Below, piece after piece: positions 6,089 to 48,076 of a stretch of 64,000 nucleotides of DNA. The translations under genes and the position numbers were made by a program. The notes under the pieces are model-generated. The model searched no databases and had not been told where the DNA came from. It saw only the letters and a program-made list of their open reading frames with translations. The stretch is from Nitrospira sp. (lineage in GTDB: Bacteria; Nitrospirota; Nitrospiria; Nitrospirales; Nitrospiraceae), in NCBI GenBank assembly GCA_036984305.1, contig BQWY01000001.1, forward strand, positions 1,571,501 to 1,635,500, given 5' to 3'. Numbering within the stretch: the first letter of the stretch is position 1; each line of letters opens with the position of its first letter.

Positions 6089-6150
6089 TCCGCATCGGCG
6101 TGAGGTTCCGTTCGCAGCCCTGCCTTCCGATTCAGAGGATATGGTTCATC

Positions 6151-6185
6151 TATACTTGACAGATCATCAAGTATACAGGTATATG
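6151..6185 (+). promoter_or_regulatory. Promoter with embedded perfect 9-bp inverted-repeat operator
   Basis: TATACTTGA at 6151-6159 and TCAAGTATA at 6167-6175 form a perfect inverted repeat with a 7-bp spacer. The left arm overlaps a -35 box TTGACA (6156-6161); an 18-bp spacer leads to TATATG (6180-6185). The regulator gene begins at 6194, so transcription would start almost at the start codon (leaderless or very short leader). The position suggests autorepression by the product of the next gene. Confidence 0.7.
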
Positions 6186-6193
6186 GCCATGTC

Positions 6194-7411: not shown

Positions 7412-7436
7412 CGTTGAAAGACGGAGGAACCCAACG

Positions 7437-8282: not shown

Positions 8283-8303
8283 GCAATTTTTTTATGATGT
8301 GTG

Positions 8304-8314
8304 TCAAGTATACA
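8304..8314. promoter_or_regulatory. Half-site of the island operator (TCAAGTATACA)
   Basis: The 11-mer TCAAGTATACA is identical to 6167-6177 in the regulator promoter. It lies between the binding-protein and lipoprotein genes, ahead of a TATAAG (8319-8324). No matching left arm is present, so this may be a weak or half site. Confidence 0.4.
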
Positions 8315-8360
8315 AGACTATAAGTTAATCATGATGAATTACTTACGGAAGGAGCGAGAG

Positions 8361-9029
8361 ATGGGGCATCTGTCGACCGGTACGCCGTTACGGGTTTCGG
8401 CTGTGGCTGCTTTGGTAGCAGCCTTGCTGGCAGGTGGGTGGGGCTGCGCCAGGATGCCTTTTACCACGAAGGTGATTCATGAGGACCAGCGGGCGATCGT
8501 CAAACTGCAACACGAAGTGGACGGGACAACATATACGCATCCCGCATTGCTGACTACTCAGGACATCCATTCGATTCTTCAAGGTTTTTCACTTCGGGAG
8601 CAGCAACAGCTTCCGCTCCGGTGGTTTGCCGAGGAGCAGCCTCCGAAAAAGCTGTTCCATGACGATGAGTTGGCGATTTTGGCCGGCTCCTTGGCGGATG
8701 CGCTCGGCAAAGCGAAGCCGCAAGAACGGGTGGCATTCGAACTGCGGGCACCGGGCCACAATCCCGCGGAGGAAAGAGATGTCACGGCCGGCTGGCTCGC
8801 GATTCGGGATGATTTGCTTCACCTCGAGGTTCAGTACTTTCACGTGATGGTCCCGAAACATCGAATTGAAACCTACGATGTCAACTACGCGACGGTCCCT
8901 CCGCCCAAACGAGACTACTTGCTGTACTTCGAGCCTGGACGGTTTTGGGGCAAACAACCGGGGTTCGACGCCCCGGTCCTCAAGTACAAGGCATTCCTTC
9001 AGGCAAATATGGGCGGCGCGGCCAACTAG
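8361..9029 (+). CDS. Lipoprotein of the oxyanion island, copy 1
   Basis: A 222-residue lipoprotein with signal peptide and lipobox (AGGWGC, Cys about residue 29). It is clearly paralogous to the product of 15240-15980: both share THPA-LxxxxI, a Q/R-rich segment with RWxVxx, the FxDxEIAxLAxxLxxALxxAxPxERVxF core, and TxGWLxIRDxLLxLxxxxxH. No known domain is recognised. Placed between a ModA-type protein and a porin in both copies, it is likely a periplasmic adaptor or outer-membrane partner. RBS AAGGAG is at 8349-8354. Confidence 0.8.
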   Translation: MGHLSTGTPLRVSAVAALVAALLAGGWGCARMPFTTKVIHEDQRAIVKLQHEVDGTTYTHPALLTTQDIHSILQGFSLREQQQLPLRWFAEEQPPKKLFHDDELAILAGSLADALGKAKPQERVAFELRAPGHNPAEERDVTAGWLAIRDDLLHLEVQYFHVMVPKHRIETYDVNYATVPPPKRDYLLYFEPGRFWGKQPGFDAPVLKYKAFLQANMGGAAN

Positions 9030-9084
9030 ACGCACCGATTGTCACCATCTTACCCGACAGGGTGCGACTAAACGGGGAGGAACT

Positions 9085-10794: not shown

Positions 10795-10824
10795 GATAGC
10801 ACCCATCCGGAAAGGAGACACAGC

Positions 10825-11646
10825 ATGAACACAGAACCACGGACGCCGACCAATGAGCAGAAGGATCCAGCAGGCACGTCGATGCGCCGATCGTCGATGT
10901 CCGATCGCGTGAGCGTGTTGCATGGAGAGGTGGAATTGGTCCATCGCGGATTAACGCGGATCGCCATTCGCCTGCGGGTCGGACGTCAAACACGTGTCCG
11001 CGTGCGGCGACCGGCAGATGTCGATGACGGTCTGCCCTGTCAGGTCGGTCAGGGCGCGACGGTACAGATTTCTGATGAGGCTATCTCCATTGAACCCGGC
11101 ACGTTCCGGCAGGGAAGGCGCCGATGGAATCGCTGGCTGGGGCGCGTCGTGCTGGTCGAACGTGACGGCACGCGGGTGCATGTGAGCGTCAAGGTCCAAG
11201 GTGATGACATTGTATTACGGAAATCCTATCCGGTTGAGGATTCGTGCGCGAGCCTGCGCACCTGGGACATCGTGAACCTTGTGGTTGATCCGTCTCGGAT
11301 CGGGCTGCACTTCCTGCCTCATCGTGGTGCTTTGCAAGATGCGGGCATGCGCTCGCGCCTCTGGCACCCTCAGTGGGACGCCCATGTATGGCTACAGGCT
11401 CGTCTAGGCGCCGTTCAGCAATTGGAGAAAGGTTATTTGCTGTCGCTGGATCTGGGGGCCACGTTGATCGCGGCCCACGTGCTGTCGACCGACTGTCGGT
11501 CGGTGAAGTGGACGCCGGGTAGGTTCCTTCGCATCCAAGTCGGGGTGTGGGAGGCGCACATCGATCCTTGCACAATCGGAGCCGAACCTGTTCCCTGCCA
11601 ACTCTTGCATCTCACGGATGCTACGAGCAAGGCTTCGAGGATGTAG
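10825..11646 (+). CDS. Tandem TOBE/OB-like repeat protein
   Basis: A 273-residue soluble protein without signal peptide. It seems to contain three TOBE-like units: about residues 30-95 (ending GQGATVQISDEAISIEPG), 100-165 (LGRVVLVERDGTRVHVSVK) and 185-255 (GAVQQLEKGYLLSLDLG). TOBE domains bind oxyanions in ModC and Mop proteins, so this may be an intracellular molybdate buffer or a regulator partner. This is motif resemblance only. It lies 30 nt after the porin, in the same orientation, behind AAAGGAGA. Confidence 0.6.
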   Translation: MNTEPRTPTNEQKDPAGTSMRRSSMSDRVSVLHGEVELVHRGLTRIAIRLRVGRQTRVRVRRPADVDDGLPCQVGQGATVQISDEAISIEPGTFRQGRRRWNRWLGRVVLVERDGTRVHVSVKVQGDDIVLRKSYPVEDSCASLRTWDIVNLVVDPSRIGLHFLPHRGALQDAGMRSRLWHPQWDAHVWLQARLGAVQQLEKGYLLSLDLGATLIAAHVLSTDCRSVKWTPGRFLRIQVGVWEAHIDPCTIGAEPVPCQLLHLTDATSKASRM

Positions 11647-11679
11647 CACCTGGTCGCCATCACGATGGTAAGGAATGAA

Positions 11680-11720
11680 TCCACCTAGCGTACGTCAGGT
11701 GGAACCTGCCCAGTGCAGGT
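11680..11720 (+). promoter_or_regulatory. Two adjacent hairpins in the modA leader
   Basis: TCCACCT (11680-11686) pairs with AGGTGGA (11697-11703), and directly after it ACCTGC (11704-11709) pairs with GCAGGT (11715-11720). The CCACCT, AGGTGG, ACCTGC and GCAGGT arms could also form alternative pairings. No T-run follows. A structured leader or attenuator for modA is possible. Confidence 0.4.
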
Positions 11721-11809
11721 GAAGAAGAATGGTGGATTGAGTAGCGGCGGAGCCGGTGCTAGCGTAAAACAATCGGTATGCCGTGTGGGGATGCAGGATG
11801 GAGGACTGT

Positions 11810-12610
11810 ATGAAGGTTCTAACAACATGGGGGGCGCCGTTCAAGTGGTGCCGGCTCATTATCGCGCTGCTGGTCTCAGTGACGGCCTGTCCATGGGCGG
11901 CGGCCGCCGGCGATCTCACGATTGCAGCGGCGTCCGACCTGAATTTTGCCTTCAAGGAACTGGTGGGAGCTTACGAGAAGAAGGCCGGCGGACACGTGAA
12001 GCTCAGTCTGGGTTCCTCAGGGAATTTTTACTCGCAGATTAGGAACGGAGCCCCGTTCGATGTGTACTTCTCTGCCGATATCGCCTACCCAAGGAAGTTG
12101 GAGGAAGCGGGGCTCACCGTACCGGGCACTTTGTATCGATATGCGATCGGGCGCATTGTCGTATGGGCTCCCTCGCAATCGCCGCTTGCCGTGGAGACAC
12201 AGGGTATACAGGTGCTGCTCGATCCGTCGGTGCGTAAAATCGCCATCGCCAATCCCAAACATGCGCCGTACGGCCGTGCGGCCGTCGGCGCGCTCGAGCA
12301 TTTCAAGCTGCGCGAGCGTGTCAGTGATAAGCTGGTGCTCGGCGAGAACATCTCCCAGACGGCTCAGTTCGTACAGTCTCGGGCTGCTGACATCGGAATC
12401 ATTGCACTGTCCTTGGCGTTGGCTCCGGCGATGAAGGAACGCGGCAAGTACTGGGAGATTCCGACCAATGCGCATCCGCCTCTCGAACAGGGGGTGGTCG
12501 TGCTCAAGAGCAGTACGAACCAGGACGGGGCGAAGGCCTTTCTCGACTTTCTTCGTAGCGAAGAGGGACAAACTATCATGAAGCGATACGGATTCGTGCT
12601 GCCGTCTTAG
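11810..12610 (+). CDS. modA: Molybdate ABC transporter substrate-binding protein ModA (2)
   Basis: A 266-residue periplasmic protein with a signal peptide ending at AAAAGDL. It carries the classical ModA sequence: IAAASDLNFAFKELV, LGSSGNFYSQIRNGAPFDVYFSAD, and the C-terminal GVVVLKSS/AKAFLDFLRSEEGQTIMKRYGF. It delivers molybdate (or tungstate) to the ModB permease encoded downstream. ATG 11810 follows GGAGGA. Of the three binding proteins in the island it is closest to canonical ModA and is nearest to modBC. Confidence 0.92.
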   Translation: MKVLTTWGAPFKWCRLIIALLVSVTACPWAAAAGDLTIAAASDLNFAFKELVGAYEKKAGGHVKLSLGSSGNFYSQIRNGAPFDVYFSADIAYPRKLEEAGLTVPGTLYRYAIGRIVVWAPSQSPLAVETQGIQVLLDPSVRKIAIANPKHAPYGRAAVGALEHFKLRERVSDKLVLGENISQTAQFVQSRAADIGIIALSLALAPAMKERGKYWEIPTNAHPPLEQGVVVLKSSTNQDGAKAFLDFLRSEEGQTIMKRYGFVLPS

Positions 12611-12643
12611 ACCATGATCGACCGAATACCCGACGCGAGCTGT

Positions 12644-12970
12644 ATGGTCGGCAGTGCATACCGTTCAGCCATGGCGGGAATAGCCGTTGTACTGTCGTTC
12701 GTGCTCGGGTGCTCCCAGGCCGTGCAGATGGTCCGAGAGGATTCGACCGGAGGCGTCGTGGCCTATTCATTTAAGGATGATCGCGGCGGACCCGTCATGT
12801 CGCGATATCGCAAAGAGGCGATGGCCCGGATCGACCAGAAATGCCCGAGGGGGTTCAGAATCGTCCGGGAAGGGGAGACGCGCGGATATACCAGCATGTT
12901 GGGCATCTATGAAGGGACTGAGGACGAGAGCATTGGGAGAAAATGGGGAATTCAGTTCGAATGTAAATAG
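12644..12970 (+). CDS. Small hypothetical lipoprotein
   Basis: About 108 residues with a hydrophobic N-terminus and lipobox VLGCSQ. The mature part has a conserved-looking core: RYRKEAMARIDQKCPRGFRIVREGE then a terminal Cys (FECK), so two cysteines may form a disulphide. No function recognised. It sits inside the mod cluster between modA and mop, suggesting envelope co-expression. The start is uncertain (ATG 12614, 12644 or 12671); I chose 12644 because it gives a typical lipoprotein signal. Confidence 0.62.
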   Translation: MVGSAYRSAMAGIAVVLSFVLGCSQAVQMVREDSTGGVVAYSFKDDRGGPVMSRYRKEAMARIDQKCPRGFRIVREGETRGYTSMLGIYEGTEDESIGRKWGIQFECK

Positions 12971-13047
12971 CGCGTCACTACCCCGGCAACGGTCGGGGAG
13001 TCGTGGACTCAGGCTGTTCTTGGCGCAATTATACAAGGGAGGAATCC

Positions 13048-13251
13048 GTGAAACTCAGCGCACGCAATCAGTTTCAAGGGACTGTCAGCAAGATCACCGA
13101 GGGGCAGGCCATGGCCGAGATCACGGTGAAGGTCGGGAATCTGGAATTCGTCTCGGCCATCACGGAGGGATCGGTAAAGAGCATGGGGTTAAAGAATGGC
13201 GATGCCGTCACGGTTGCGATCAAGGCCACGGAAGTGATGATCGGAAAGTAA
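13048..13251 (+). CDS. Single-domain molybdopterin-binding (Mop/TOBE) protein
   Basis: A 67-residue molbindin: LSARNQFQGTVSKITEGQAM, then EITVKVGNLEFVSAIT, and GDAVTVAIKATEVMIGK at the end, the Mop signature. Such proteins assemble as oligomers that store molybdate or tungstate in the cytoplasm. GTG 13048 is preceded by GGGAGGA. It lies between the small lipoprotein and modB. Confidence 0.93.
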   Translation: MKLSARNQFQGTVSKITEGQAMAEITVKVGNLEFVSAITEGSVKSMGLKNGDAVTVAIKATEVMIGK

Positions 13252-13266
13252 CCCCCGCCGTTGACA

Positions 13267-13306
13267 AGGCCGGAAGCGCCTTTCTAGGATGGCACGCTTC
13301 CGGCCT
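13267..13306 (+). repeat. 12-bp perfect inverted repeat between mop and modB
   Basis: AGGCCGGAAGCG (13267-13278) and CGCTTCCGGCCT (13295-13306) pair perfectly around a 16-nt loop. No U-run follows, so it is not a simple intrinsic terminator. It lies 25 nt before the modB start and could set the mop:modBC expression ratio or protect mop mRNA. Confidence 0.7.
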
Positions 13307-13330
13307 GTCGGCTCGTGGAGGTGTAGGCGC

Positions 13331-14005
13331 GTGAATTGGTCGGCCATTCGTCTCACCCTTGAACTGGCGGTCTTGACGGCGTCGATCTTGATGCTGATCG
13401 GATTGCCGCTCGCGTATTGGCTTACCTTCTCGCGCCGTCGTTGGACGTTCCTGGTCGAGTCGGTCGTCGCGCTGCCACTGGTGCTGCCTCCGACTGTCCT
13501 GGGGTTTTACATCCTGGTGGCCATCGGTCCCCAAAGTCCCCTCGGTCGGTTCTACGAGCAGATTGTCGGTCATCCGCTTCCCTTTACGTTCGAAGGACTC
13601 TTGTTTGCCTCGGTCCTATACAGTCTCCCCTTCGCGGTGCAACCCTTTGCGTCTGCATTTGAACAAGTCGATCGGCGATTGATCGAGGCATCCTGGACTC
13701 TTGGCGTCTCGAAGCTGGCCACGTTCGTGAAGCTGGTATTGCCGCTCTCCACCGCCGGGCTCGTCACGGGCTTCGTTTTGAGCTTCGCGCACACACTCGG
13801 TGAGTTTGGTGTAGTCCTAATGGTCGGGGGAAACATCGAGGGGATCACGCGGACCGTTTCGATCGAGATCTATGACGACGTGCAGTCCTTGAACTATTCA
13901 GCCGCGGCGACGACCGCGGCCTTCCTCTTGGCGATTTCCTATCTCGTCCTGCTCGGAGTGTATGGCCTCAATCGAAGAATGTGGGCGGCATGGCCGCAGA
14001 AATAA
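13331..14005 (+). CDS. modB: Molybdate ABC transporter permease ModB
   Basis: A 224-residue inner-membrane permease with about five to six hydrophobic segments. The EAA-type loop is visible (RLIEASWTLGVSKLATFVKLVLP) and is followed by AGLVTGFVLSFAHTLGEFGVVLMVGGN, the ModB signature. GTG 13331 follows GGAGG with 9-nt spacing. It overlaps modC by 16 nt, indicating translational coupling. Works with ModA (11810) and ModC. Confidence 0.95.
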   Translation: MNWSAIRLTLELAVLTASILMLIGLPLAYWLTFSRRRWTFLVESVVALPLVLPPTVLGFYILVAIGPQSPLGRFYEQIVGHPLPFTFEGLLFASVLYSLPFAVQPFASAFEQVDRRLIEASWTLGVSKLATFVKLVLPLSTAGLVTGFVLSFAHTLGEFGVVLMVGGNIEGITRTVSIEIYDDVQSLNYSAAATTAAFLLAISYLVLLGVYGLNRRMWAAWPQK

Positions 14006-15075
14006 CGCTCGATTTTCGGAAGTCCTTCCGTGAGCGACTGACCATCGACGCTCGGCTGCAGGTCTCGCTGACGCCTCCATCCGTCCTCATTCTCTTTGGC
14101 CCCTCCGGATCTGGAAAAACCACGGTGCTGAGATGCGTAGCCGGCTTGGAACGGCCCGACGAAGGGAACATAGGATTCGACGGCGAGAGTTGGTTCGATG
14201 CCAAGCGCGGGCTTCTTGTCCCGCCACAAAAACGTGGATTGGGGTTCATGTCGCAGGACTATTCCTTGTTCCCACATTGTTCCGTGGCCAGAAACTTGGA
14301 GTTTGGATTAGGCGACGTGACAAAGCGTGAACGGGGGATTCGCGTTGCTGATACGTTGAAACTCCTGCACATCGAGGATCTCGCCGACCGCCGCCCGAGC
14401 GAACTCTCCGGAGGGCAGCAACAACGGGTGGCGCTGGCTCGGGCCATCGTTCGTCATCCTCGGCTTCTTCTCCTCGATGAGCCACTGTCCGCGCTGGATG
14501 GGCCGATGCGCGCTCGCGTGTGCGTTGAGTTGAGGAACCTGCTTCACAAGCTTGCGATTCCGGCCATCGTGGTGACACACGATTGGGCTGAGGCTCTCGC
14601 CTTGGGCGACCACATGGCGGTGATGAGCCATGGTCGGTTTGTTCAACAGGGGAGCCCCCAGAGCGTCTTCAGCCATCCCGTGGATCAGGAAGTCGCGCGC
14701 GTCGTGGGAGTTGAGACGGTGCTACCGGGGCAAATAATCGGAGAGGCTGATGGACTCGTGACGGTCGAGGTTCAGGGCCAGCGGCTCACGGCGATCGCCA
14801 CCGAACAGCGGGGACCCGACGTGTTCGTGTGCATCAGGGCGGAGGACGTCATGCTGGAGCTCGCGGGGCAGGGTCCAACCAGCGCGCGTAACCATGTGAT
14901 CGGTACGGTGGCGCATTTGCAATCGGTTGGTGCCTTGGCCCGAGTCCAAATCGATTGTGGCTTTTTGCTCACGGCGCTCATCACTCGGTCCGCGTTACTT
15001 GAACTCGGTCTTAAACCGGGGATGTCGGTTCAGGCGGCCATCAAGGCGGGCGCGATCCATCTCATCTCCCACTAG
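13990..15075 (+). CDS. modC: Molybdate ABC transporter ATP-binding protein ModC
   Basis: A 361-residue ATPase. Walker A GPSGSGKTT, Q-loop MSQDYSLFPH, signature LSGGQQQRVALARA, Walker B LLLLDEPLSALD and the switch His (VVTHDWAEALALGDH) are all intact. The C-terminal third is a TOBE-containing regulatory region, as in ModC. It energises import through ModB. ATG 13990 is preferred; a GTG at 13981 is also in frame. The gene overlaps modB. Confidence 0.95.
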   Translation: MAAEITLDFRKSFRERLTIDARLQVSLTPPSVLILFGPSGSGKTTVLRCVAGLERPDEGNIGFDGESWFDAKRGLLVPPQKRGLGFMSQDYSLFPHCSVARNLEFGLGDVTKRERGIRVADTLKLLHIEDLADRRPSELSGGQQQRVALARAIVRHPRLLLLDEPLSALDGPMRARVCVELRNLLHKLAIPAIVVTHDWAEALALGDHMAVMSHGRFVQQGSPQSVFSHPVDQEVARVVGVETVLPGQIIGEADGLVTVEVQGQRLTAIATEQRGPDVFVCIRAEDVMLELAGQGPTSARNHVIGTVAHLQSVGALARVQIDCGFLLTALITRSALLELGLKPGMSVQAAIKAGAIHLISH

Positions 15076-15239
15076 TCTGTGCGCCGAGTCGCGCGGAACA
15101 TTCAGGGAAATGACTTACGAGCAGCGCCGAGCTCGATTTGCATGAGGATCGCACCTCGACGCCTCTTGGACTCAGAAACGACGCTCGGTCGTGAAGTGGC
15201 GGTGGACAGTACGCGAATAAGATGCATAGAGTCAATTGA

Positions 15240-15980
15240 CTAGGGCGCTGCTCGGGTGTTCACATCCGGATCGTGAGCCAGTCCGGGTTGTACGGGCATC
15301 GCTTCCAGTGCGGCTCGATATCGGATCTGTAATTCTTCTCTCTGGTCGAGGGCAAAGATGTTTCCTGCGGAGCGGACCCGGGCCAGATAGGCTTCCGGCT
15401 CGAAGGTGACGTCAAAGGCCGCTGAGACTTCCGGAACGTTCGGCATCTGGCGGTCATACTTGCTGATGTCCGGCGCCGGGCCGTGGCGGTCGTGCGCTTC
15501 ACTCAACGAGAGGTACAATAGGGGGTCACGAATCGAGAGCCATCCCGTAGTCGTTTCTTGTTCGCCATACTCGGTTGCATGGCTCAAGTGAAAGTACACA
15601 CGTTCAGACGGTGTTGCTTGGGCGAGCGCCTTTGAGAGAGCCTGGGCGAGTAACGCGATTTCTTCGTCGCGAAAGGCGCGCTTGCGGTCCGCCGGACCGA
15701 CGACCCAACGGTGAATGAAATTGCGCTGCTCCCACGTTCGGATTCCCCGAAGGAGGGTGCCGATCTCGGTGGGCGTCAGGGCGGCCGGGTGCGTATTGGA
15801 AACCGAATCAGGGTCGGGTTCCAGCAGAACCCGATTCAATCCCGACTCGTAGACAGATCGGTGAGGCGGACTGGCTGGGGTTGCGCAACCGGCGGCAAGA
15901 ATCAATCCCACGAGGGCAATCGTCGTGCGAACAATCCTTTGATAGTATCGATGCGAGCGTGGCCATCTCTGGTCGTTCAT
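15240..15980 (-). CDS. Lipoprotein of the oxyanion island, copy 2
   Basis: A 246-residue lipoprotein (lipobox LAAGCAT, Cys about residue 32), paralogue of the 8361-9029 product. Shared features include NTHPAALTPTEIGTLLRGI, the RxW helix, FRDEEIALLAQALSKALAQA, ERVYFHL and GWLSIRDPLLYL. It overlaps the binding-protein gene upstream by ATGA (4 bp) and has AGGAGGTGAG before its start, so it is translationally coupled. Order here is porin, binding protein, lipoprotein, whereas copy 1 is binding protein, lipoprotein, porin. Confidence 0.8.
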   Translation of the reverse strand: MNDQRWPRSHRYYQRIVRTTIALVGLILAAGCATPASPPHRSVYESGLNRVLLEPDPDSVSNTHPAALTPTEIGTLLRGIRTWEQRNFIHRWVVGPADRKRAFRDEEIALLAQALSKALAQATPSERVYFHLSHATEYGEQETTTGWLSIRDPLLYLSLSEAHDRHGPAPDISKYDRQMPNVPEVSAAFDVTFEPEAYLARVRSAGNIFALDQREELQIRYRAALEAMPVQPGLAHDPDVNTRAAP

Positions 15981-16801
15981 GGGCTCACCTCCTGATGCTG
16001 TGCCTTCCCGGCCTCACCCTTCACCGGGTCAAATCCAAACTCTTGTAAGACACTCTGAACGTGCGGTGTGATCAGAAATTTCATGAAAGTTTCGGCGCCG
16101 GAGACGTTTTTGGCGGTCCACACCGCGGCGACCCCATAGTGCACCGACGGGAAAGGGTCCGCTGGCATGATGTCGAGCACACGGATTTTCGCATGTGGCA
16201 CGGCATCAGTCCGGTATACGATCCCTACATCCGCTTCCCCGCTGGCCACTAGATCGACGACGGCCCGTGAGTGTTGTCCGTACACATACTGCGATCCGCG
16301 TTTTGGTTCGAGCCCCCGCAACTTCAGAAACTGTGCCGCGACTCGTCCCACCGAAGATGTCTTAGGGTCGCCAATAGCGATCCGGCGGAAATCCATGGTC
16401 TTGAGGTCCCCGATCGAGCGCTCCGGGGTCGGCAGTGCGATGCTGGTGATGAATGTCAACGACGTGGAGGCATAGACGCGCCTGCTCCCTCCAATCACGA
16501 GCCCCTTCTGTTCCAATCGATTGATTTCTTCGACCGACGACGGAAGAAACACATCCACGGGTGCACCCTGTTCAATCTGTGCGCGCAGGGTTTGTGAAGG
16601 CCCATAGACGACGCGGACGGCAAACTCAGGATGTTGGGTCTCGAAGAGCGGCAATATTTTACGAAACGCATCGCGGAGGCTATTGGCCGCCGCAATCGTC
16701 AGAGGCTCCGGCTGTGCCCAAACGGGTGTGGCCGTCCCCATGCTCAGCATCAGCAGGCTGGCGAAGAGAATTATTCTCACCTTCCCACCGCGGTGCGACA
16801 T
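15977..16801 (-). CDS. ModA-type substrate-binding protein (3)
   Basis: A 274-residue secreted ModA homologue: signal peptide ending PVWAQPE, then TIAAANSLRDAFRKILP, SQTLRAQIEQGAPVDVFLPSS and GEADVGIVYRTDA. It keeps the GAPVDVF motif lost in protein 1. It likely binds molybdate, tungstate or a related oxyanion and either shares ModBC or serves a different permease, as no second permease is in the window. RBS AAAGGAGAG precedes ATG 16801. Confidence 0.88.
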   Translation of the reverse strand: MSHRGGKVRIILFASLLMLSMGTATPVWAQPEPLTIAAANSLRDAFRKILPLFETQHPEFAVRVVYGPSQTLRAQIEQGAPVDVFLPSSVEEINRLEQKGLVIGGSRRVYASTSLTFITSIALPTPERSIGDLKTMDFRRIAIGDPKTSSVGRVAAQFLKLRGLEPKRGSQYVYGQHSRAVVDLVASGEADVGIVYRTDAVPHAKIRVLDIMPADPFPSVHYGVAAVWTAKNVSGAETFMKFLITPHVQSVLQEFGFDPVKGEAGKAQHQEVSP

Positions 16802-16821
16802 GTGTCTCTCTCCTTTCCGAG

Positions 16822-18429
16822 TTAAAAGAAAAATTGGTACTGAACCGAGAACCGGTTTTCGATCAGATCACGACCCGCCCCGGGCAATTGATCAAAGATC
16901 GTCCGATGAGGGGTAAAGCCGCCGGTTCCCATCGTGATGTTGGCATAATCCAGAATGAGCCGATTATTGTACGTGCCATCGAAGCTATAGCTGGCAGCGA
17001 TGCCGGCTTCCTTGATGAGGTCGTCCACCTCCCGTGTGGCCGGGTCCATCACGCCGTAGCGGGCAGCGATTTCCAGTTTGCGGGGAATGACATACTTGCC
17101 CACCTGCACGTACCAGCCCCAGGCCTGACCAGTATCCTTCTGTTCTCCCACCGGCGCGGTGCTAGGCTGAAAGGCGATGACACCAGAGTCATGGGTGACC
17201 TTCTGATGCCGATAATAGCCCTCAGCCTGGAAGGACCACCCTCGGTATTTGGCAATGAAGTCGACTTCGTGCGTCTGCAAATCCCAGCTGCCACCTCCCA
17301 GAAGGCGACCATTAAAGCTGGCGGCCACCCGCTGGCGCAACGCGCGGAGGACGATGTCGGAACGAATGGAAGTCAGCAGATTCAATTGCGGGTTGTAGGC
17401 ATAGCCATAGGCCAAGGCGATTTGCGGAACACGTGACTCTTGAATATCGCCCTGGCCGTATCCGGGACGTCCCGAGATATTCCATAAGAATCGTGCCGTG
17501 TACATCAGCTCGGAGTTCGAAAAGCGGGTATTCCAATTGTAGGTTCTGGCCTGAGCGGCATCCGCTCCAGGTACGGCCTGACTGACAGCGGCGCTTTCGT
17601 CCGTCAGACCTGGGCCCAAGCCGCCGAACATTCCAATTGCATAGTTGAAGCGATACAGAGTTTCGTCACTCATGATGGCCAGGCCAATATCCCGCTTGTT
17701 GATGGCGTTTGCCGCGAAAGCCTGTTGAACGATCATTTCGTCTGAAAAGGATTGCGTCGCCACTGAAGTGATGAGTGCCCGGTTGAACCAGACGCGCTGC
17801 TGCCCCAGTTGAACGGTTGCGTAGGGAAGGTGCCAGGATGACACGTACGCATCGAGGAGGGTGCCTCGTCCATTACTGCCTTCCTGGTCGGTCTCCGCAC
17901 GTTGGTCGAACGCAAAGGACACGTTGTAGCGGAAGTCCGGGTCGAAGGCGTATCCGAGAAATTGAAATTGGACGCGACGCATTTGAAATGTGTTGGTGTC
18001 GTCCTGCTTTTTGACGGATCGGAACTCAACCTGCCCCCCGAGGACTTCCGGATTGTTTTTCACTTCCCCGATCGTTCCCCATGCCTCGTTGTAAGCATGA
18101 TGAGTGAATCGGGCTTGGATCAGCATCCGGAGTTTCAGGAGAAATTTCGATCCCACCCGAATGTTCAGGCCGTTGTTCACATCGATGTGAAAGTTCGGTT
18201 TGGACAAACGTTCGCGGGTTTCGAGCGTGGCCAGTCCCTTGCGGTATTCGTCTTCCGTGATGATTCCTTTGAGATACAGATATTTGAGGCCGGGATCCTC
18301 GTTGGAGTAGTACTCCCAACGGCCGTCCTTCTGGACGAATTCTCCTTCCTCCACCGCATGCACGGCCTGAACACGATTGAGCCCGATGAGGCTCAGGATG
18401 ATAAGAACAATACGACCGGAAGCTCTCAT
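16822..18429 (-). CDS. Outer-membrane porin (OprO/OprP-like), copy 2
   Basis: A 535-residue outer-membrane barrel protein with signal peptide (ending VHAVEEG), the segment VQKDGRWEYYSNEDPG and an LKGIITEDEYRKGL helix, then barrel strands and a terminal Phe (VQYQFFF). It shares with the 9085 porin the EExxVQKDG/EYY/DP opening, MRRVQFQFLGYAFDPDF/ RRARLYFMGHLF region and GRPGYGQGD/GRPGYGEGD loop. ATG 18429 is preceded by GGAGGA with 8-nt spacing. Second member of the divergent oxyanion operon, after the DUF2292 gene. Confidence 0.88.
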   Translation of the reverse strand: MRASGRIVLIILSLIGLNRVQAVHAVEEGEFVQKDGRWEYYSNEDPGLKYLYLKGIITEDEYRKGLATLETRERLSKPNFHIDVNNGLNIRVGSKFLLKLRMLIQARFTHHAYNEAWGTIGEVKNNPEVLGGQVEFRSVKKQDDTNTFQMRRVQFQFLGYAFDPDFRYNVSFAFDQRAETDQEGSNGRGTLLDAYVSSWHLPYATVQLGQQRVWFNRALITSVATQSFSDEMIVQQAFAANAINKRDIGLAIMSDETLYRFNYAIGMFGGLGPGLTDESAAVSQAVPGADAAQARTYNWNTRFSNSELMYTARFLWNISGRPGYGQGDIQESRVPQIALAYGYAYNPQLNLLTSIRSDIVLRALRQRVAASFNGRLLGGGSWDLQTHEVDFIAKYRGWSFQAEGYYRHQKVTHDSGVIAFQPSTAPVGEQKDTGQAWGWYVQVGKYVIPRKLEIAARYGVMDPATREVDDLIKEAGIAASYSFDGTYNNRLILDYANITMGTGGFTPHRTIFDQLPGAGRDLIENRFSVQYQFFF

Positions 18430-18583
18430 GTCGGTGGTCCTCCCTAACCTGAACATGGGAACTTCCGGTCGTCCGGTCAGCTCGAATGATCAATTGGCGA
18501 GCATGTATGGCTCCTTCACGTGAGATGGCCTCGAACCAGGTATTAGCGACAACAGCAGAGGAGGGGGGCGAGCACGATCGATT

Positions 18584-39923: not shown

Positions 39924-41183
39924 TCACCGCCCTTCTTCTACGCCGAGCGGGGAGGTATCCGAAGCGGATCGCGCGCCGGCGCGAAATGCCGCTGGATGCT
40001 CGGCCTCATCTTGGAGTGAAATCAGACTTCGGACGGTGTCGGGCCTCCTGGCGGTTTCGCGGATGGTTCCCATCGTCAGATAGATCAGCACGGAGAGAAT
40101 CCCGAGCGACACCGTGAGCGAGCGTCCCCACGCGCCGAAGCCATGATCGAATGGGAAACGAAACCGCGGAGAGGCGTTCCACACCGACCAGACCGACAGA
40201 CCCACCAGTACGTACAAGCATGCCCGCCGGACAACAGGATGCCCGATGGACGCGATCATCATCAGCACCGCCACGGCCATCGCGACATCCAGCCATCGAA
40301 GGCGCGCGCCCATCCGCCCGGCGGCGTACAACATCAAATGGTTGCCGATGAGCAACAGTCCGATCAGGGAGAATTGAAGATAGGCCAGATATTGATACGG
40401 TCCGCGGACGACTTGCTCATAGGCGGAAGGGACGACCTGCTCCAAGGACCACGCATAGAGCAAGCCGGTGAAGGGTTGCAGGAGCAATGACGACAGTCCG
40501 ATCAACCACCCCACGTTAACCAGGCTGAGATAATAGCCTTCGTGCGCTCGGTCCTGGGGTCGCCCTGCCCGCCAGGCTCCATAGGCCGCAATCACGTAGC
40601 CTGCCATGACCAAATTGCCCACGAATCGGTGCAGGGCCAGAGGGAGCCACGTGGGATTGACCAGATTGCTCCATGTGGCTGTGCCTCGCACCGGCGTCAA
40701 CATGTACGAGCCCATGCCGTCGAGCACCAACACCCAGATCAGCATGAGGAGGGCCGCCACGATTCCCATCGCGAGATGCAGCGAGGGGCGGCGTCGGCGA
40801 ATAGGCTCCCAGTAATGGTAGTACGGATAGAGGGCTCCGAACTGTAGCAGGAAGGCGGCGATCCCCAGGGCAAGTGGTCCGCGGAACTGGTTCCACATCC
40901 ACATCGTCGTGACGGGAAACAGCCCAATCAAGAGTTCCACCATGATGACCGCCAGCACCGTGCTCGCGCTGAACACGACCACGGTGAATCGCGTGATCGA
41001 ATGGGCTAGTTCCGTATAGAAGGAGTTGGAACGGCCTTGCCATTCCAGAATTGGTGCCAGAATCATGAAGCCGACCGATAATCCGGCCAATAGGATGTGG
41101 AGGAGACTCGGCACCGCGACCACCAGGCTGTTGCCGAACAGCGGGAACTGGATAGGCGGGAGCGTCGGATCGAAGCTCGGCAT
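39924..41183 (-). CDS. Cytochrome bd-like subunit I homologue (B)
   Basis: A 419-residue membrane protein, paralogous in layout to its neighbour A. It has LLHILLAGLSVGFMI near the start, FLLQFGALYPYYHYWEP, and PLALHRFVGNLVMAGYVIA in the middle, offering candidate haem-ligating His residues. Eight or nine helices. No CydB-like or NrfD-like (ActF) gene accompanies it in the operon, so A and B may form a heterodimer that replaces ActF. Confidence 0.75.
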   Translation of the reverse strand: MPSFDPTLPPIQFPLFGNSLVVAVPSLLHILLAGLSVGFMILAPILEWQGRSNSFYTELAHSITRFTVVVFSASTVLAVIMVELLIGLFPVTTMWMWNQFRGPLALGIAAFLLQFGALYPYYHYWEPIRRRRPSLHLAMGIVAALLMLIWVLVLDGMGSYMLTPVRGTATWSNLVNPTWLPLALHRFVGNLVMAGYVIAAYGAWRAGRPQDRAHEGYYLSLVNVGWLIGLSSLLLQPFTGLLYAWSLEQVVPSAYEQVVRGPYQYLAYLQFSLIGLLLIGNHLMLYAAGRMGARLRWLDVAMAVAVLMMIASIGHPVVRRACLYVLVGLSVWSVWNASPRFRFPFDHGFGAWGRSLTVSLGILSVLIYLTMGTIRETARRPDTVRSLISLQDEAEHPAAFRAGARSASDTSPLGVEEGR

Positions 41184-41184
41184 G

Positions 41185-42225
41185 TCAAGAAGGCTCCGCT
41201 GTTCCGGTTTGCATCGTACTCAAGTGGGACAAAAACGCCGCGTAGCCGGCCACGTGCCAGCGATCCTCGACCGACAACAGGCCCTTGAAGGCCGGCATCA
41301 TGTCTTTCCCTTCCGTGATGACGCGAAAGATGTCGGTTTCCGACAGCGCGGTCACGTCAGGGTTTCGCAAGTTCGCCGGGAGTTCCTTGAGATAGGGGGC
41401 CACGGGACCGTCTCCGCCTCCATGTGCTCCGTGACAGTGACGGCAATTAATGTGAAAGAGGCGCTCTCCCCGAGCGGTTCGTCCAATGGGAACAGGGTGA
41501 CGAACGGCTTTCGCACGGCTTGTTCGAGGGACACTTCCCTCCGGTGAGTGCAGCCGAGGAGATTCCTGGCTGTGGTAGGAGGCCTGCTCCTGCATGTCCT
41601 GCGAGCAGGCCACCGTGGCGGTGACGGTAAGGACGCACAGCACCAGCACGCCGGCGTGCTGCACGACGTGGCCCTGTACGTCGCGGACGGGTGCAAGCAC
41701 GGAACTCTGGATGTCGTGGGCCCCCGCCCGCTCGTATGCTGTCCGCACGTCTGCCGCACGGCCGGCCGAGGCATCCGGACCAGCCAGGCGGATGGAGACC
41801 GCAATCTGTCCGTCGTCGATGCGGTTGTCCCGGTGGTGGATTTTGGCGCCGGCCAGACGAAGTTTGACCACCATTGAAACAAACGTGATGACGATGGCGA
41901 GCAACATCATCGTTTCGTACGAAATGATGCCGACGATGGGCGGAGCCACGATGGGTTTGCCGCCCGTCATGAGCGGATACAAGGCCGCGGTACCGCCGGC
42001 AAAGAAGAGCCCGACGCCGATGCCGACCAGGCCGGCCATGATCGTGACCATGTAGAGCGGCACGCCGCCGATTCGAATGGACGCCCGTTGCACCAAGGGA
42101 ACGGGGCTCATCACGTGGATCTCGTCCTTCGCCACCCCGATGGTGCATAAGTCGCGGGTGAGCGCCTCCAGGTCGGCATCAGGCGCGAACATCCCTCGAA
42201 TCTCGACGTTATCCTCCGCTTCCAT
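41185..42225 (-). CDS. ACIII subunit ActD fused to monohaem cytochrome c ActE
   Basis: A 346-residue fusion. The first ~185 residues are ActD/DUF3341: ALTRDLCTIGVAKDEIHVMSP, two membrane helices (VTIMAGLVGIGVGLFFAG; IISYETMMLLAIVITFVSMVV). A second hydrophobic segment then ends in a lipobox-like VTATVAC (Cys207), the start expected of a separate ActE lipoprotein, followed by a c-type haem motif CRHCH (261-265) with candidate axial Met near 309 (MMPAFKG). ATG 42225 follows AAGGAAGG. No stop separates the two halves. Confidence 0.85.
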   Translation of the reverse strand: MEAEDNVEIRGMFAPDADLEALTRDLCTIGVAKDEIHVMSPVPLVQRASIRIGGVPLYMVTIMAGLVGIGVGLFFAGGTAALYPLMTGGKPIVAPPIVGIISYETMMLLAIVITFVSMVVKLRLAGAKIHHRDNRIDDGQIAVSIRLAGPDASAGRAADVRTAYERAGAHDIQSSVLAPVRDVQGHVVQHAGVLVLCVLTVTATVACSQDMQEQASYHSQESPRLHSPEGSVPRTSRAKAVRHPVPIGRTARGERLFHINCRHCHGAHGGGDGPVAPYLKELPANLRNPDVTALSETDIFRVITEGKDMMPAFKGLLSVEDRWHVAGYAAFLSHLSTMQTGTAEPS

Positions 42226-43531
42226 GCAGGCGCCCTTCCTTTTCCTCCCAGATGGAAATGAGCGGGACAAATTTTGATGCGAGCAGATACAGCAAGACGG
42301 CGAGGGCACAGGCGCCCGACAAGATGGTCAACTCCGTCCACGATGGGAAGTATCGGCTCCAGACGTACGTGAGTCTCGGGTGGGTCAACGGCGGGACGAT
42401 GATCAGCATGCGTTCGACGTACATGCCGATGTTAATGCCGATCCCCAGCAGCATCATGCCGAACGGCCATGTGCGGAATCGAGGAATGGTCAGCAGCGCC
42501 AGTGGAAACACGTAGATCAAGAGGATCATGGACCAAAAGGCGACAGCATAGTCCCCGGTGACCAACGCATGGAGGATGGCCATTTCGTCGGGTATTTTCC
42601 CGTACCAGACCGTCAACTGATCCGCGAAGTATAAATACGCCAGCGTCAGCGTGGTGACGACGAGGAGCTTTCCCAGTTTGTCGAAATGTTCCAGCCGAAT
42701 GTAGTCGTCGAGGGCACCCTGGCGCCGGACGACGTACAGTCCGACCGCGACCATGGCCAAGCCGGAATGGACCGCCCCCACGACAAAATACGGTGCGATG
42801 ATCGAAGTGTGCCATCCCGGTACGAGCGACATCCCGAAATCCCAACCGACGATGGAGTGGACGGAAATCATGACCATGACGATGAGGGGCGTGATAATGC
42901 GGATCGCGGTGCTCAGGGTTTCCCATTCCCGTTGCGTTCCCTTCCACCCCAGACACAAGAGGGCATACACGGGCTTGCGCCAGCCGCCGACGCGATCGCG
43001 AGCCAGCGCAAAATCCGGAATGAGCGGTAGATAGAGATAGATCGTGCTGGCGGTGGCGTAGGTAAAAATGGCCGTGGCATCCCACATCAACGGTGAGCGG
43101 AAATCCGGCCAGATGTCCCGTTGGCTGGGGTAGGGTAACAGGTAATACCAGCGCCAGACCCGCCCGAGATGAAAGAAGACGCACAGCGCGGCGATCATCA
43201 CCGAGATGATGGTCATGAGCTCTGCGATCCGCGTCACCGGCCGGCGCCATTGCGCTTTCGTCAGCCGCAGGACCCCCGAAATGAACGTGCCCGAATGGCT
43301 GACGCCGATCCAATAGACGAAGGAGGCAATGTAGGAACTCCAGAAAATCGGATGATGCATATTAGTCTGGCCGATGCCCGTCTCGATCTGATGCACCCAG
43401 GTGGCCGCTCCGGCCACGACAATGAGGGCGAGCCCGCACACGACCGTCAGATAGGTCGGGCCCACGTGTCTCAGCGGGGCCAGGAGGTCCCGATTGATCG
43501 TGGCCATCTCGTTCCATCCGGAGCGCTGCAT
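42209..43531 (-). CDS. actC: ACIII subunit ActC, NrfD-like quinone-binding membrane protein
   Basis: A 440-residue NrfD/PsrC-type membrane protein with about ten helices. Characteristic is FWSSYIASFVYWIGVSHSGTFISGVLRL, the HLGRVWRWYYLLPYP motif and the WDATAIFTYATASTIYLYLPLIPD stretch. ActC holds the quinol site and a proposed proton path in alternative complex III. The start may be 43531 or ATG 43507 (MATINRD). Overlaps the ActD-ActE gene by 17 nt. Confidence 0.88.
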   Translation of the reverse strand: MQRSGWNEMATINRDLLAPLRHVGPTYLTVVCGLALIVVAGAATWVHQIETGIGQTNMHHPIFWSSYIASFVYWIGVSHSGTFISGVLRLTKAQWRRPVTRIAELMTIISVMIAALCVFFHLGRVWRWYYLLPYPSQRDIWPDFRSPLMWDATAIFTYATASTIYLYLPLIPDFALARDRVGGWRKPVYALLCLGWKGTQREWETLSTAIRIITPLIVMVMISVHSIVGWDFGMSLVPGWHTSIIAPYFVVGAVHSGLAMVAVGLYVVRRQGALDDYIRLEHFDKLGKLLVVTTLTLAYLYFADQLTVWYGKIPDEMAILHALVTGDYAVAFWSMILLIYVFPLALLTIPRFRTWPFGMMLLGIGINIGMYVERMLIIVPPLTHPRLTYVWSRYFPSWTELTILSGACALAVLLYLLASKFVPLISIWEEKEGRLHGSGG

Positions 43532-43536
43532 CGTGG

Positions 43537-44244
43537 TCAATTCAACCGCTTCAAATAGGTCACCGCCGGGTCCGTGCCCAGCGACTCGAGCAGCTTGAAG
43601 CCGCGGTCGTTCTTGGCCATGCGCGAGACCTGGCTCTCGGGGTCGCGCCGGTTGCCGAACACCAGCGCGGACGTGGGGCAGGTTTGGACGCATGCCGGTT
43701 GGATCTCTCCGTCTCGTACCGGCCGCTTGTCGAGCTCGGCCTGTTCCTTCGTCTTGCGGATTCGCTGAACGCAAAACGTGCATTTCTCCATGATGCCGTT
43801 CATCCGGACCGTCACGTCCGGATTCAGTTGTTCCTGGAGAGGGGCATCCCAGTGAGGGTCGAACCAATTGAACTGCCGGGCGACGTATGGACAGTTGTTA
43901 CCGCAGTAGCGCACGCCGATGCAGCGATTGTAGACCTGCGCGTTCAACCCATCGGGCGTATGGTAGGAGGCGTAGACCGGACAGACAGGCTCGCAGGGGG
44001 CATTGGCGCAATGCTGGCACAGCACCGGCATGAACTTGACGGAGACGTTCGGATACTCGCCCTCCCAATACCGTTCGATGCGAATCCAATTGATCGCCCG
44101 GCCCTGAGCCGCCTCGGCTTCGCCTGAAATGCGAATGTTGTTTTCCGCGTGACATGCCACGACACAGGCTTCGCAGCCGGTGCATCGGTCGAGATCGACG
44201 ACCATGCCCCATTGGGGCGTCTGAGGTGAAGTGGAATCGCTCAT
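43537..44244 (-). CDS. ACIII subunit ActB2, four-cluster ferredoxin-type protein
   Basis: A 235-residue Fe-S protein with four cysteine groups: CTGCEACVVACHAENN, CQHCANAPCEPVCPV, CIGVRYCGNNCPY and CTFCVQRI with CVQTCPTSALVFG. These match the C-terminal half of ActB (and DmsB/PsrB-like subunits). In Rhodothermus-type ACIII this half is fused to the molybdopterin-like half; here it is a separate gene. Carries electrons between quinol site and haems. Confidence 0.93.
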   Translation of the reverse strand: MSDSTSPQTPQWGMVVDLDRCTGCEACVVACHAENNIRISGEAEAAQGRAINWIRIERYWEGEYPNVSVKFMPVLCQHCANAPCEPVCPVYASYHTPDGLNAQVYNRCIGVRYCGNNCPYVARQFNWFDPHWDAPLQEQLNPDVTVRMNGIMEKCTFCVQRIRKTKEQAELDKRPVRDGEIQPACVQTCPTSALVFGNRRDPESQVSRMAKNDRGFKLLESLGTDPAVTYLKRLN

Positions 44245-44279: not shown

Positions 44280-46466
44280 TCAGTGCCTCGCAGCACGATC
44301 GATGCCGATCAAGCCCGGCCTGTCGACCGCCGGCTCCTGAATCAATACAAGTGAACTCCGCCCCGCCAGGGGTTCGATCTGCACTCTCGTGGCGCCTCGG
44401 GCCAGGGCTCCGGAAATCTCATCGAAAATCGGTGCGATGAGGTGCAACGGGTTACGTCCCCTCCCGCTGGCGTACCGCCCATATGTCGCATGCCCTTGTC
44501 CAATGGGCATGGCGACCACGTCGGGGCGTATTCCGGGAAACAGCACCGCCGGGACGTCGAGCATACCCACCGTGGATCGAATGCGCACCAGCTGTCCCTG
44601 CTCGATGCCGTAACGGGTGGCGGTTTGAGGATTGATTTCAACCCACGCTCCCCACGCCGCAGTGGTCAAGGTGTCCGGCAATTCTTGCAACCATGGCAAG
44701 TGCGCTCCGTCCAGGCCGACGGTGGTAGACACGTACGGGTAGAAGTAGAAGGGATAGTCGTGAGGATCGCCCTCGAAGCGAGGAAGGTCCAAGGACTCCG
44801 GCGCACGCGGGCGTTGGATGGACACGGGTGTTGCGGCAGCAGACCACCACCCGCCCTGCTGAAGGTGGTCCGTCCAGTGAGCCTCGGCCTCAGCGGTGGA
44901 TGCCACCTGCGCTCGGGCGGCCGTCCGCTCCCGGAGAAGGGTGGGAAAATCCGGCCAGGGAAACCGATCCTGATCCAGCGACCTGCCAAGTTGCAGGATG
45001 CTGTCTCCCAAGGCACGCGTGTTGTCGTACAGGGGGCGAACGACCGGCTGTAAGAGCCCGATCGTCTGAACGGCCACGCCTCCGGGAACGACATGATCGC
45101 CCCAGGATTCGAGCCATGCATGGGCGGGGCAGACGACGTCGGCCCTCGAGGCGGATTCGTCCAGAAAGGGCCCCAGGCTCGCAATAAAGGCTGCATGATC
45201 GAATAAGCGGTCCAGACCCAGGCTTGGCGGGATCGCATGGAGCGGGTTGCACTCGTTCAACAACAGAACGGTGCGCTCCCCGCGCTCGAACTGCGACACG
45301 AGATCCAACACCGTCCGTTCGGTCAGCCATCGCGCGCCCGGCGCGGGGTTGAGAGCGCCGGACGGTTCGTACAATTGAAGACCTCCCGGTCGGCCTACGT
45401 TTCCGAGAAGGGCGTTCAGCCCGTTGATCGCTTCGAGCGTAGGCGTGGCATTGGTATGCGCACAGGCCGTGCCACCCCCGAGGATCAGTGGGTGTCTGGC
45501 CGTAGCCAGCTCTCTCCCGAGCTTCACGATGTCGTTTCGTGGAACGTCCGTGATCCGTTCGATCTGTTCCACATCCACGGCACCGTACAGACGTGCAAAC
45601 GCCTCGAGGGATGCTGCCGGAAGCCGGTTGGGTGCTTCGGTCATCACGACATGGCCGAGCGCGATCGCCAGCAGGCCTTCCATCCCGGGCTTGATGGGAA
45701 TCCATCGGTCGGCATTCGCGGCTGTCAACGAGAGTCGCGGTTCGATATGAATGAATCGACCACGGATCGAGTCCCGCCCTTGTCGCATCCGGCCGTAGGC
45801 GACCCCATAGGAGACGGGTGACAACCAGTGTTCGAGAAATGGGGCCCCAAACGAGACGAGGAGATCGGCCTGTGCCAGGTCGTAGAGCGGCAACGTGTCC
45901 GTGCCGTATCCGTGCCGAATGGCCGAGCGGAGCGGCATCTCCGCTCCGGGATCGAACCAGTATAACTCCCCCTTGGCCACATGGATGAAATCTTCGAGCA
46001 GGTCGCCCAGTGTGCCGGACAGTGGTTTGCTGAGTATCACCACGCGCCCGGGTGCCGTACGGATCTGCTCCAGGATCGAGTTCAAGGCGTCATCGAACGC
46101 AATCGGTGTGAAGGACGCGTCGGTCGCATGGCGCGGACGGAACATGGCGTCGCGAAGCCGGTCGGGATGGTACAACCCTTGAACCGCGGCTTGGCCTCGC
46201 GCGCAGAGTTTGCCCTGGTTCACCGGATGGATCGGGTTGCCTTCGAGTTTCTTGGCCCGTCCTTCCATCGTGCGCACAAGGACGCCGCAGCCGGCCGGAC
46301 ACTCCTGACAGGTCGAGGCGTACCAGTCCGCCACTCCAGGCACGATTTCATCGTCTGGCAACAGGTACGGAACGAGTTTGTGCGCACTCGGTTTGCACCC
46401 TGGCATCGCGGCCGCGGCGGCGGCGGCGACCGCAGTTTTCAGCCAGGTGCGACGCTTCATGTCCAT
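44280..46466 (-). CDS. ACIII subunit ActB1, molybdopterin-oxidoreductase-fold protein
   Basis: A 728-residue protein homologous to the molybdopterin oxidoreductase fold, with a twin-arginine start (KRRTWLK) and Ala-rich segment ending MPGC (Cys24), so it could be Tat-exported and lipidated. Cluster-binding CQECPAGCG followed by a later Cys (KLCARGQ) is visible. In ACIII the equivalent domain carries an Fe-S cluster but no molybdenum cofactor. ATG 46466 has GAGGAGGAC. Separate from ActB2 by 36 nt. Confidence 0.88.
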   Translation of the reverse strand: MDMKRRTWLKTAVAAAAAAAMPGCKPSAHKLVPYLLPDDEIVPGVADWYASTCQECPAGCGVLVRTMEGRAKKLEGNPIHPVNQGKLCARGQAAVQGLYHPDRLRDAMFRPRHATDASFTPIAFDDALNSILEQIRTAPGRVVILSKPLSGTLGDLLEDFIHVAKGELYWFDPGAEMPLRSAIRHGYGTDTLPLYDLAQADLLVSFGAPFLEHWLSPVSYGVAYGRMRQGRDSIRGRFIHIEPRLSLTAANADRWIPIKPGMEGLLAIALGHVVMTEAPNRLPAASLEAFARLYGAVDVEQIERITDVPRNDIVKLGRELATARHPLILGGGTACAHTNATPTLEAINGLNALLGNVGRPGGLQLYEPSGALNPAPGARWLTERTVLDLVSQFERGERTVLLLNECNPLHAIPPSLGLDRLFDHAAFIASLGPFLDESASRADVVCPAHAWLESWGDHVVPGGVAVQTIGLLQPVVRPLYDNTRALGDSILQLGRSLDQDRFPWPDFPTLLRERTAARAQVASTAEAEAHWTDHLQQGGWWSAAATPVSIQRPRAPESLDLPRFEGDPHDYPFYFYPYVSTTVGLDGAHLPWLQELPDTLTTAAWGAWVEINPQTATRYGIEQGQLVRIRSTVGMLDVPAVLFPGIRPDVVAMPIGQGHATYGRYASGRGRNPLHLIAPIFDEISGALARGATRVQIEPLAGRSSLVLIQEPAVDRPGLIGIDRAARH

Positions 46467-46497
46467 GCCGCTGAAGTCCTCCTCTGGTCGATCGGCA

Positions 46498-47022
46498 TTA
46501 CTTATGACAGGTCCAACAGTCGCGCGAGGCTCCTCGAGCCTCATGGCAGGACAAGCACCATCCCATTTCGTGACTTTCAGCGCGAGGAGGGGCGGCCATG
46601 CGTTCGACATGGCCGTGACATTGCTGGCACTGCAGTCCGTTTGCGAGGTGCATCTCATGCGTGAAGTACACGAAGTCCGGAAGTCGATGCAGGCGCGTCC
46701 ATTCGACCGGTGTCTGTGCGCTCCAGGAGGCGAGCAGCTTCCGAGTCTCCGATGTTTCGTCCGCTAGATTCCGGTGGCAGCCAATACAGATGTACATGGA
46801 CGGGATACCAGCCGTGGGGGAATCCGCGGCCGCTCGATGGCAGTACAGACACTCAATGCCCAAGTCCCCGGCGTGCTTCACGTGGGTGAATGCCACAGGT
46901 TGCGCTTCTTGGCCCGATAAATCGGAGCTCCCGGTCGAGTACAACGTTCCGACACCCAGGGCGCCCAGGGCAGCTAATACCAGCACCACCGCTCCTTGCC
47001 ATCGTGTGCGAGCGCTCGTCAT
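46498..47022 (-). CDS. actA: ACIII subunit ActA, pentahaem cytochrome c
   Basis: A 174-residue cytochrome with an N-terminal membrane anchor (about residues 10-28) and five CxxCH motifs: CLYCH 58-62, CIGCH 79-83, CQQCH 132-136, CLSCH 156-160 and CWTCH 169-173. This is the ActA pattern of alternative complex III. It leads the operon, 31 nt ahead of ActB1. Confidence 0.92.
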   Translation of the reverse strand: MTSARTRWQGAVVLVLAALGALGVGTLYSTGSSDLSGQEAQPVAFTHVKHAGDLGIECLYCHRAAADSPTAGIPSMYICIGCHRNLADETSETRKLLASWSAQTPVEWTRLHRLPDFVYFTHEMHLANGLQCQQCHGHVERMAAPPRAESHEMGWCLSCHEARGASRDCWTCHK

Positions 47023-47137: not shown

Positions 47138-47578
47138 TCAACGCTCGACGCCGACCGATTCGGCCTCCATCAGCCGGGGAGGACGACGGTTCGCTTCCTG
47201 CTCCGACAGCAATTCCAACGCAATCGCGTTTGGTCTGAGGGAAGATCCGTCCTCGAAGTCGATTTCGTCGATGGAAAATTCCTGACCCGATGCCACCTCC
47301 ACATTGCGCCGCCCACACGTGCACTCAAAAGATGGAGTGGAGCACGCCGTGATCCGGTTACAGTCCCTGCATCGGATCGACATGGGCACTTCGCAGAGGT
47401 GAAGCGTCGCCTGGGCGGCGGGGGTACCGCGCGTCAACAGCTGAAACGAGAATTGGAAATTCGCGGGATCGATCTCTCGCAGTCGGCCCACGCTCAATAC
47501 CACCGACCGCACCAGCCTGCCCGCGGCCGCTTGTAATACGGCATCCACAACGCACGTTGCCATCGCAAGTTCGCGCAT
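47138..47578 (-). CDS. HypA-like zinc protein lacking nickel-binding His2
   Basis: A 146-residue protein matching HypA/HybF: MRELAMATCVVDAVLQAA, VRSVVLSVGRLREIDP, NFQFSFQLL, and a zinc site from IRCRDC plus CTCGRR. HypA uses the N-terminal MHE motif to bind nickel for [NiFe] hydrogenase maturation; here residue 2 is Arg (MRE), so nickel delivery may be lost. A C-terminal extension of about 30 residues is present. Start has GGAGGAGCGTC. No hydrogenase gene is in the window. Zinc-dependent regulatory role is possible. Confidence 0.8.
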   Translation of the reverse strand: MRELAMATCVVDAVLQAAAGRLVRSVVLSVGRLREIDPANFQFSFQLLTRGTPAAQATLHLCEVPMSIRCRDCNRITACSTPSFECTCGRRNVEVASGQEFSIDEIDFEDGSSLRPNAIALELLSEQEANRRPPRLMEAESVGVER

Positions 47579-48076
47579 GACGCTCCTCCTCTCTTGCCCA
47601 GATGGTGACGACCGTTTCTGAGACCGACGACTGCTTCTGAGACCGCGGTGTGGAGATCGGTCCAGTTGGTTTTTTCCTGCTCGACTTGGTGATCGACGAT
47701 TGCTGTATGAGACGCGCGCTATGAGGTTCGGGGAGATGGAAGGGAAGGAAATGTGACGGGAAACGTCGGGCATGGGTGTCCCACTTCGAAATTGAATGTC
47801 GCCGTCTGCATGGTTGGCATTTTGACGGTAGCATGACGCGGAGCTCTCAGCACTGGAGATAACCCTAGACTCCCGTCTGCCGGCTCGGCGCTTGAGAGCC
47901 CCTGCCGTATCTCTGCATTGAGCCCAACCCTGTCAGGTATCAGTTCGTCACGGAACGATTGCCGGTCAGGACCAGCGCGCGGGGGATATGACAAGGCCTT
48001 TTCCTAGTTGGAAATGTCGCACCTTGGAGTAGCGTGACGACCAGCAGCAGCTATCGGTCGGCTCGCGCGAACTCGG
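47579..48076. other. About 500 bp without a recognised gene
   Basis: Spacer between the divergent HypA-like and 48077 genes. Only short frames without ribosome sites; no RNA gene recognised. Confidence 0.4.

Follow-up and report, generated by a model that had tools for sequence, protein, structure and literature searches.

An orphan HypA homologue with arginine in place of His2, encoded just ahead of the alternative complex III genes in Nitrospira

Results

A HypA-like protein that begins with MRE

The window analysed here (the whole stretch of 64,000 nucleotides from Nitrospira sp. contig BQWY01000001.1, assembly GCA_036984305.1) encodes a HypA-like protein with arginine at position 2, where the relatives carry histidine. 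We consider it probable that the protein is an orphan paralogue of HypA that has diverged, in which the fold, the zinc site and Glu3 were kept, His2 was replaced by arginine, and nickel delivery was very probably lost. The gene and the neighbouring operon are listed in Table 1.

Table 1 Features of the HypA-like gene and of the adjacent alternative complex III operon (window positions)
Feature	Position	Strand	Basis or remark
HypA-like ORF (orphan HypA paralogue)	47138..47578	-	146 aa + stop, N-terminus MRE; ORF, Pfam, AlphaFold model
Start codon ATG of the HypA-like gene	47578-47576	-	First codons ATG CGC GAA
Codon 2, CGC (Arg)	47573..47575	-	His in all relatives read
Shine-Dalgarno-like GGAGGAG	47583..47589	-	Sequence; 4 nt 5' of ATG
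Zinc-site codons, C70xxC73 ... C86xC88	47315..47371	-	Alignments
Triheme cytochrome c (ActA-like), first operon gene	46498..47022	-	Pfam Cytochrome_C7
ActB1-like molybdopterin-type oxidoreductase subunit	44280..46658	-	Pfam; overlap with the cytochrome gene at the 5' end of the ORF, actual start probably more internal
ActB2-like 4Fe-4S subunit	43537..44244	-	Pfam
ActC-like membrane subunit	42209..43867	-	Pfam NrfD
ActD and cytochrome c domain in a single ORF	41185..42309	-	Pfam ActD, Cytochrome_CBB3
Membrane protein following the act genes, probably a subunit of a cytochrome bd-like oxidase	39924..41183	-	No Pfam match; position and available text of PMC12342949

The original prediction, that this is a HypA homologue with MRE in place of the usual MHE, was borne out. 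PF01155 (HypA) is the sole Pfam match (81.4 bits, with the cut-off at 28.9, residues 1-107), and an AlphaFold model calculated with 41 relatives alongside the window protein (mean pLDDT of 83) shows the HypA fold, the best 14 PDB matches all being HypA and the top one, 3a43_B, having TM scores of 0.69/0.84. The match to PF01155 and the HypA-like structural matches rule out a chance ORF. The NCBIfam equivalog TIGR00100 is not discriminating here, since it gives 61.6 bits for the window protein (cut-off 88.1) and just 46.7 bits for the MHE-type HypA of the same genome. The C-terminus is extended by about 37 residues, modelled mostly with low confidence. The protein begins MRELAMATC and a wrongly assigned start codon is ruled out, as no in-frame start up- or downstream gives MHE. 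The frame is intact, the ribosome site is well placed, and GC and GC3 of the gene are ordinary.

The zinc cysteines C70, C73, C86 and C88, expected to be present, are all kept in the alignments, and both sequence and model support retention of the zinc site. The second zinc motif is CxC and not CxxC, a form common to many relatives with His2. H60 is the sole histidine in the whole protein.

Loss of His2 compared with relatives

We compared the N-terminus with those of homologues collected by profile, sequence and pattern searches, which form a non-random sample of the HypA family. Of 130 distinct N-termini, the window protein supplies one (MRE) and another (L118) is truncated at a contig end, while His2 is present in all 128 others (MHE or VHE), as it is in 20 of 20 additional loci of the phylum search. 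Among the N-termini read, the loss is confined to the window protein, and goes, at the level of sequence, beyond ordinary variation among HypA relatives. A search of titles and abstracts, which cannot prove absence from print, returned no description of a HypA that naturally lacks His2.

Conservation reaches 85% of the rows or more at 15 positions of the 129-row alignment, and the window protein keeps 14 of them, including Glu3 and the four zinc cysteines, losing position 2 only. Three of these positions (F45, G51, T52) lie within the pattern at residues 43-52 used to fetch the alignment-scan set, which is biased toward that motif; without them, 11 of 12 conserved positions are kept. With nearly all conserved positions other than position 2 kept, prolonged neutral drift is less likely, although a recent loss of His2 could give the same picture.

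The codons CGC and CAC (His) are one transition apart, the gene was seen in one genome only among those searched, and all relatives read have His2, so that a sequencing or assembly error, with CAC as the true codon and a normal nickel chaperone as the product, must be considered. We judge it improbable: the rest of the gene is intact, the genome is 99.97% complete and the gene lies on a 4.2-Mb contig, and even a CAC codon would leave it an orphan lacking HypB.

The effect expected from loss of this residue can be gauged from the H2A variant of Helicobacter pylori HypA, which, in the available text of PMC5557546 and PMC7055735, binds no nickel while its structure is kept, leaves about 2% of urease and less than 2.5% of hydrogenase activity, and still cross-links HypB. 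Part of the nickel site remains in the window protein, in which D37 aligns with Asp40 of H. pylori, and in view of Glu3 and D37 it may bind some metal weakly. A rewired site, accepting another metal, or nickel through the N-terminal amine, Glu3, Asp37 and perhaps Cys9, would make use of these residues and of a cysteine found at position 9 in only 1 of the 129 other rows. We hold such a site to be very unlikely, however, because in H. pylori the H2A change alone is reported to abolish nickel binding (same sources, available text), and Asp at position 37 is common in normal HypA (41 of 129 rows).

Relatives and origin of the gene

No closer relatives of the window protein were found in 147 genomes of the family, 269 of the class and 395 of the phylum, where the best match by score has 36% identity and none exceeds 38% over part of the length, nor by single-sequence search of the genome_contigs collection, nor in plasmids. 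An alignment scan of genome_contigs gave 80 HypA loci, with a best identity of 43%. A hypB match lies nearby in 77 of these 80 loci; of the other three, L155 and L156 stop shortly past the gene and L160 showed none. None of the 80 has a complex III gene beside HypA.

In a tree of 88 sequences, from which near-identical rows and L118 were dropped, the window protein forms a long branch (1.39) placed, without strong support, among HypA proteins of mixed phyla, and stands apart both from the other HypA of its genome and from the hyp-operon HypA of the family. A recent duplication of the genome's MHE-type HypA is ruled out, as the tree separates the two widely and their mutual match, with 35% identity, starts only at residue 23. 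The simplest reading of these sequence relationships is that the gene probably entered the lineage by transfer from elsewhere.

A second HypA gene in the hydrogenase operon

The original remark that there is no hydrogenase nearby agrees with the genome content, and the check proposed with it, for a second, normal HypA, came out positive. No hydrogenase was found in the window, and just one true large subunit of a [NiFe]-hydrogenase was found in the genome, at C1:2361332-2362468, the remaining two PF00374 matches reading as complex I subunits. The genome holds two PF01155 genes. The other one, at C1:2362977, about 744 kb from the window copy, begins with MHE and belongs to an operon with the small and large hydrogenase subunits, a maturation protease, and hypF, hypC, hypD and hypE. 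We take this hydrogenase to be of group 3b.

The TIGR00073 profile gave no HypB match over the cut-off in this genome, in which the PF02492 matches read as UreG (in the urease cluster), CobW-like and MeaB-like proteins, the last two named by eye. HypB was over the cut-off in 4 of 4 relatives checked that have a HypA of the hyp-operon type, and in 0 of 5 relatives (G101, G130, G134, G098 and G080) with the hydrogenase-operon type alone; since HypB is missing from all five of the latter, its absence here is weak evidence on the window copy. At the level of sequence, the window copy is nevertheless without a partner like that encoded beside the HypA of its closest relatives.

The loss of nickel delivery that had been proposed is well supported by inference: from the H2A precedent, the intact second HypA alongside the hydrogenase and the lack of a HypB over the cut-off, the window protein probably no longer delivers nickel. 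Sequence and model support a kept zinc site. A partner-binding role is possible, but the searches of the genome turned up neither HypB nor UreE, the usual partners, and a new partner would be hypothetical.

As a separate observation, the genomes that have the hydrogenase-operon type of HypA alone, namely this one and the five relatives named above, all lack a HypB over the cut-off, which suggests that such hydrogenases get nickel without HypB. The present genome differs from the other five in additionally holding the orphan HypA of the window. In G012, a second hyp cluster (C1:219000-237000) with HypA, HypE, HypD, HypC and HypF also shows no HypB match in that stretch.

The genome also contains a urease cluster with ureABC, ureF, ureG and ureD (C2:35000-54000), and no UreE_N match was found in it, nor in any of 9 relatives searched. 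A role of the window protein as a urease helper in place of UreE is unsupported, since those relatives also lack UreE and the H2A variant supports so little urease activity in the available H. pylori reports.

The neighbouring alternative complex III operon

The HypA-like gene lies 115 bp upstream of the complex III operon, on the same strand. The act genes are followed by membrane subunits that probably belong to a bd-like oxidase. The operon order matches the arrangement described for Nitrospirales in the available text of PMC12342949 (actA, B1, B2, C, D, E and CydAA'), in whose main text 'hypA' is absent. ActD and an ActE-like cytochrome c domain share a single frame here, apparently as a fusion. 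Elsewhere in the window (5177-18456), we observed several molybdate-type periplasmic substrate-binding proteins with ABC transporter genes between them, as well as two large proteins resembling outer-membrane porins, all named by eye.

A strong ActB1 homologue is present in 27 other genomes of the class. We could cover the region upstream of the operon in 26 of them (G103 was left out, as its sequence begins 62 bases before the gene), two of these regions being short (L220 and L233, extending past the cytochrome gene by about 0.95 and 2.05 kb). No HypA-like ORF was found in any of the 26 (best E value 0.57), which rules out that HypA regularly belongs to complex III operons; of the genomes seen, this one alone has the association. 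A consensus scan detected no promoter. The HypA-like gene is likely transcribed, and its strand and the 115-bp gap suggest that it may be co-transcribed with the act genes.

These results bear on two other views of the gene. It could be a relic, which came with a hyp cluster, of which the rest was lost, and now drifts without function, its complex III neighbour being a coincidence. The hypB gene that adjoins nearly all related HypA loci, the lack of any remaining hyp cluster near the window copy, the long tree branch and the HypA-free upstream regions would all fit, but so diverged a neutral gene would be expected to have lost cysteines and glycines as well, and this one has an intact frame, a good ribosome site, ordinary base composition and nearly all of its conserved positions. 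We therefore regard a relic as doubtful, though a serious candidate.

Alternatively, the protein could be an adaptor for the alternative complex III, binding a subunit such as ActB1 or the oxidase and aiding folding or metal-centre assembly without nickel. This would be in line with the place of the gene at the operon head and on the same strand, and with the protein contacts retained by H2A-HypA in H. pylori (PMC5557546, PMC7055735, available text). It seems unlikely to us, as the neighbourhood is a single case and the 26 related operons indicate that complex III assembles without HypA. The fuller version, in which a nickel chaperone naturally stripped of its nickel ligand was taken on, stabilised by zinc, as an assembly factor for complex III and the bd-like oxidase, we rate slightly lower still.

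Discussion

We favour a diverged paralogue that no longer handles nickel. In the scheme that we propose, a gene acquired from outside the lineage would have landed in front of the complex III genes, a place in which transcription is likely. Replacement of His2 by Arg would have removed the imidazole ligand without which H. pylori HypA binds no nickel. The hydrogenase of the genome has its own intact HypA, and no HypB was found for either copy to load. What remained may be a small protein, stabilised by zinc and offering a surface for binding other proteins, which was either reused as an adaptor or is not yet removed. A partner-binding role is possible, by analogy, because H2A-HypA still cross-links HypB.

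If the protein is functional, it would separate the protein-binding role of HypA from the role in nickel delivery, a separation made with engineered mutants in the literature available to us. As a relic, it would be no more than a minor oddity.

The window protein shares with the HypA/HybF nickel metallochaperones (PF01155; 3a43, 5aun, 6g81 and 2kdx) the fold, the zinc cysteines, the N-terminal Met and Glu3, but differs from them in Arg2 for His2, in its extra C-terminal residues, and in having neither an adjoining hypB nor a HypB in the genome over the cut-off. The hyp-operon HypA of Nitrospira moscoviensis (CP011801, L115/L087) is 35% identical and has the same CxxC...CxCG zinc motif, whereas it begins with MHE and belongs to a hypF-C-D-E-A-B cluster. 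As in Acetobacterium wieringae, where HypA and HypB are encoded beside the IsrA oxidoreductase with no hydrogenase, HypA adjoins a redox enzyme that is not a hydrogenase; the A. wieringae HypA, in contrast, keep His2 and Glu3 and have HypB alongside (PMC10134865, available text). Another parallel is the H2A laboratory mutant of H. pylori HypA as described in the available sources, in which, as here, the His2 ligand alone is removed and the structure is kept. That substitution is an engineered alanine and this one a natural arginine, so that the window protein would be a natural counterpart of the mutant, with the nickel ligand alone gone and the fold and zinc site still in place.
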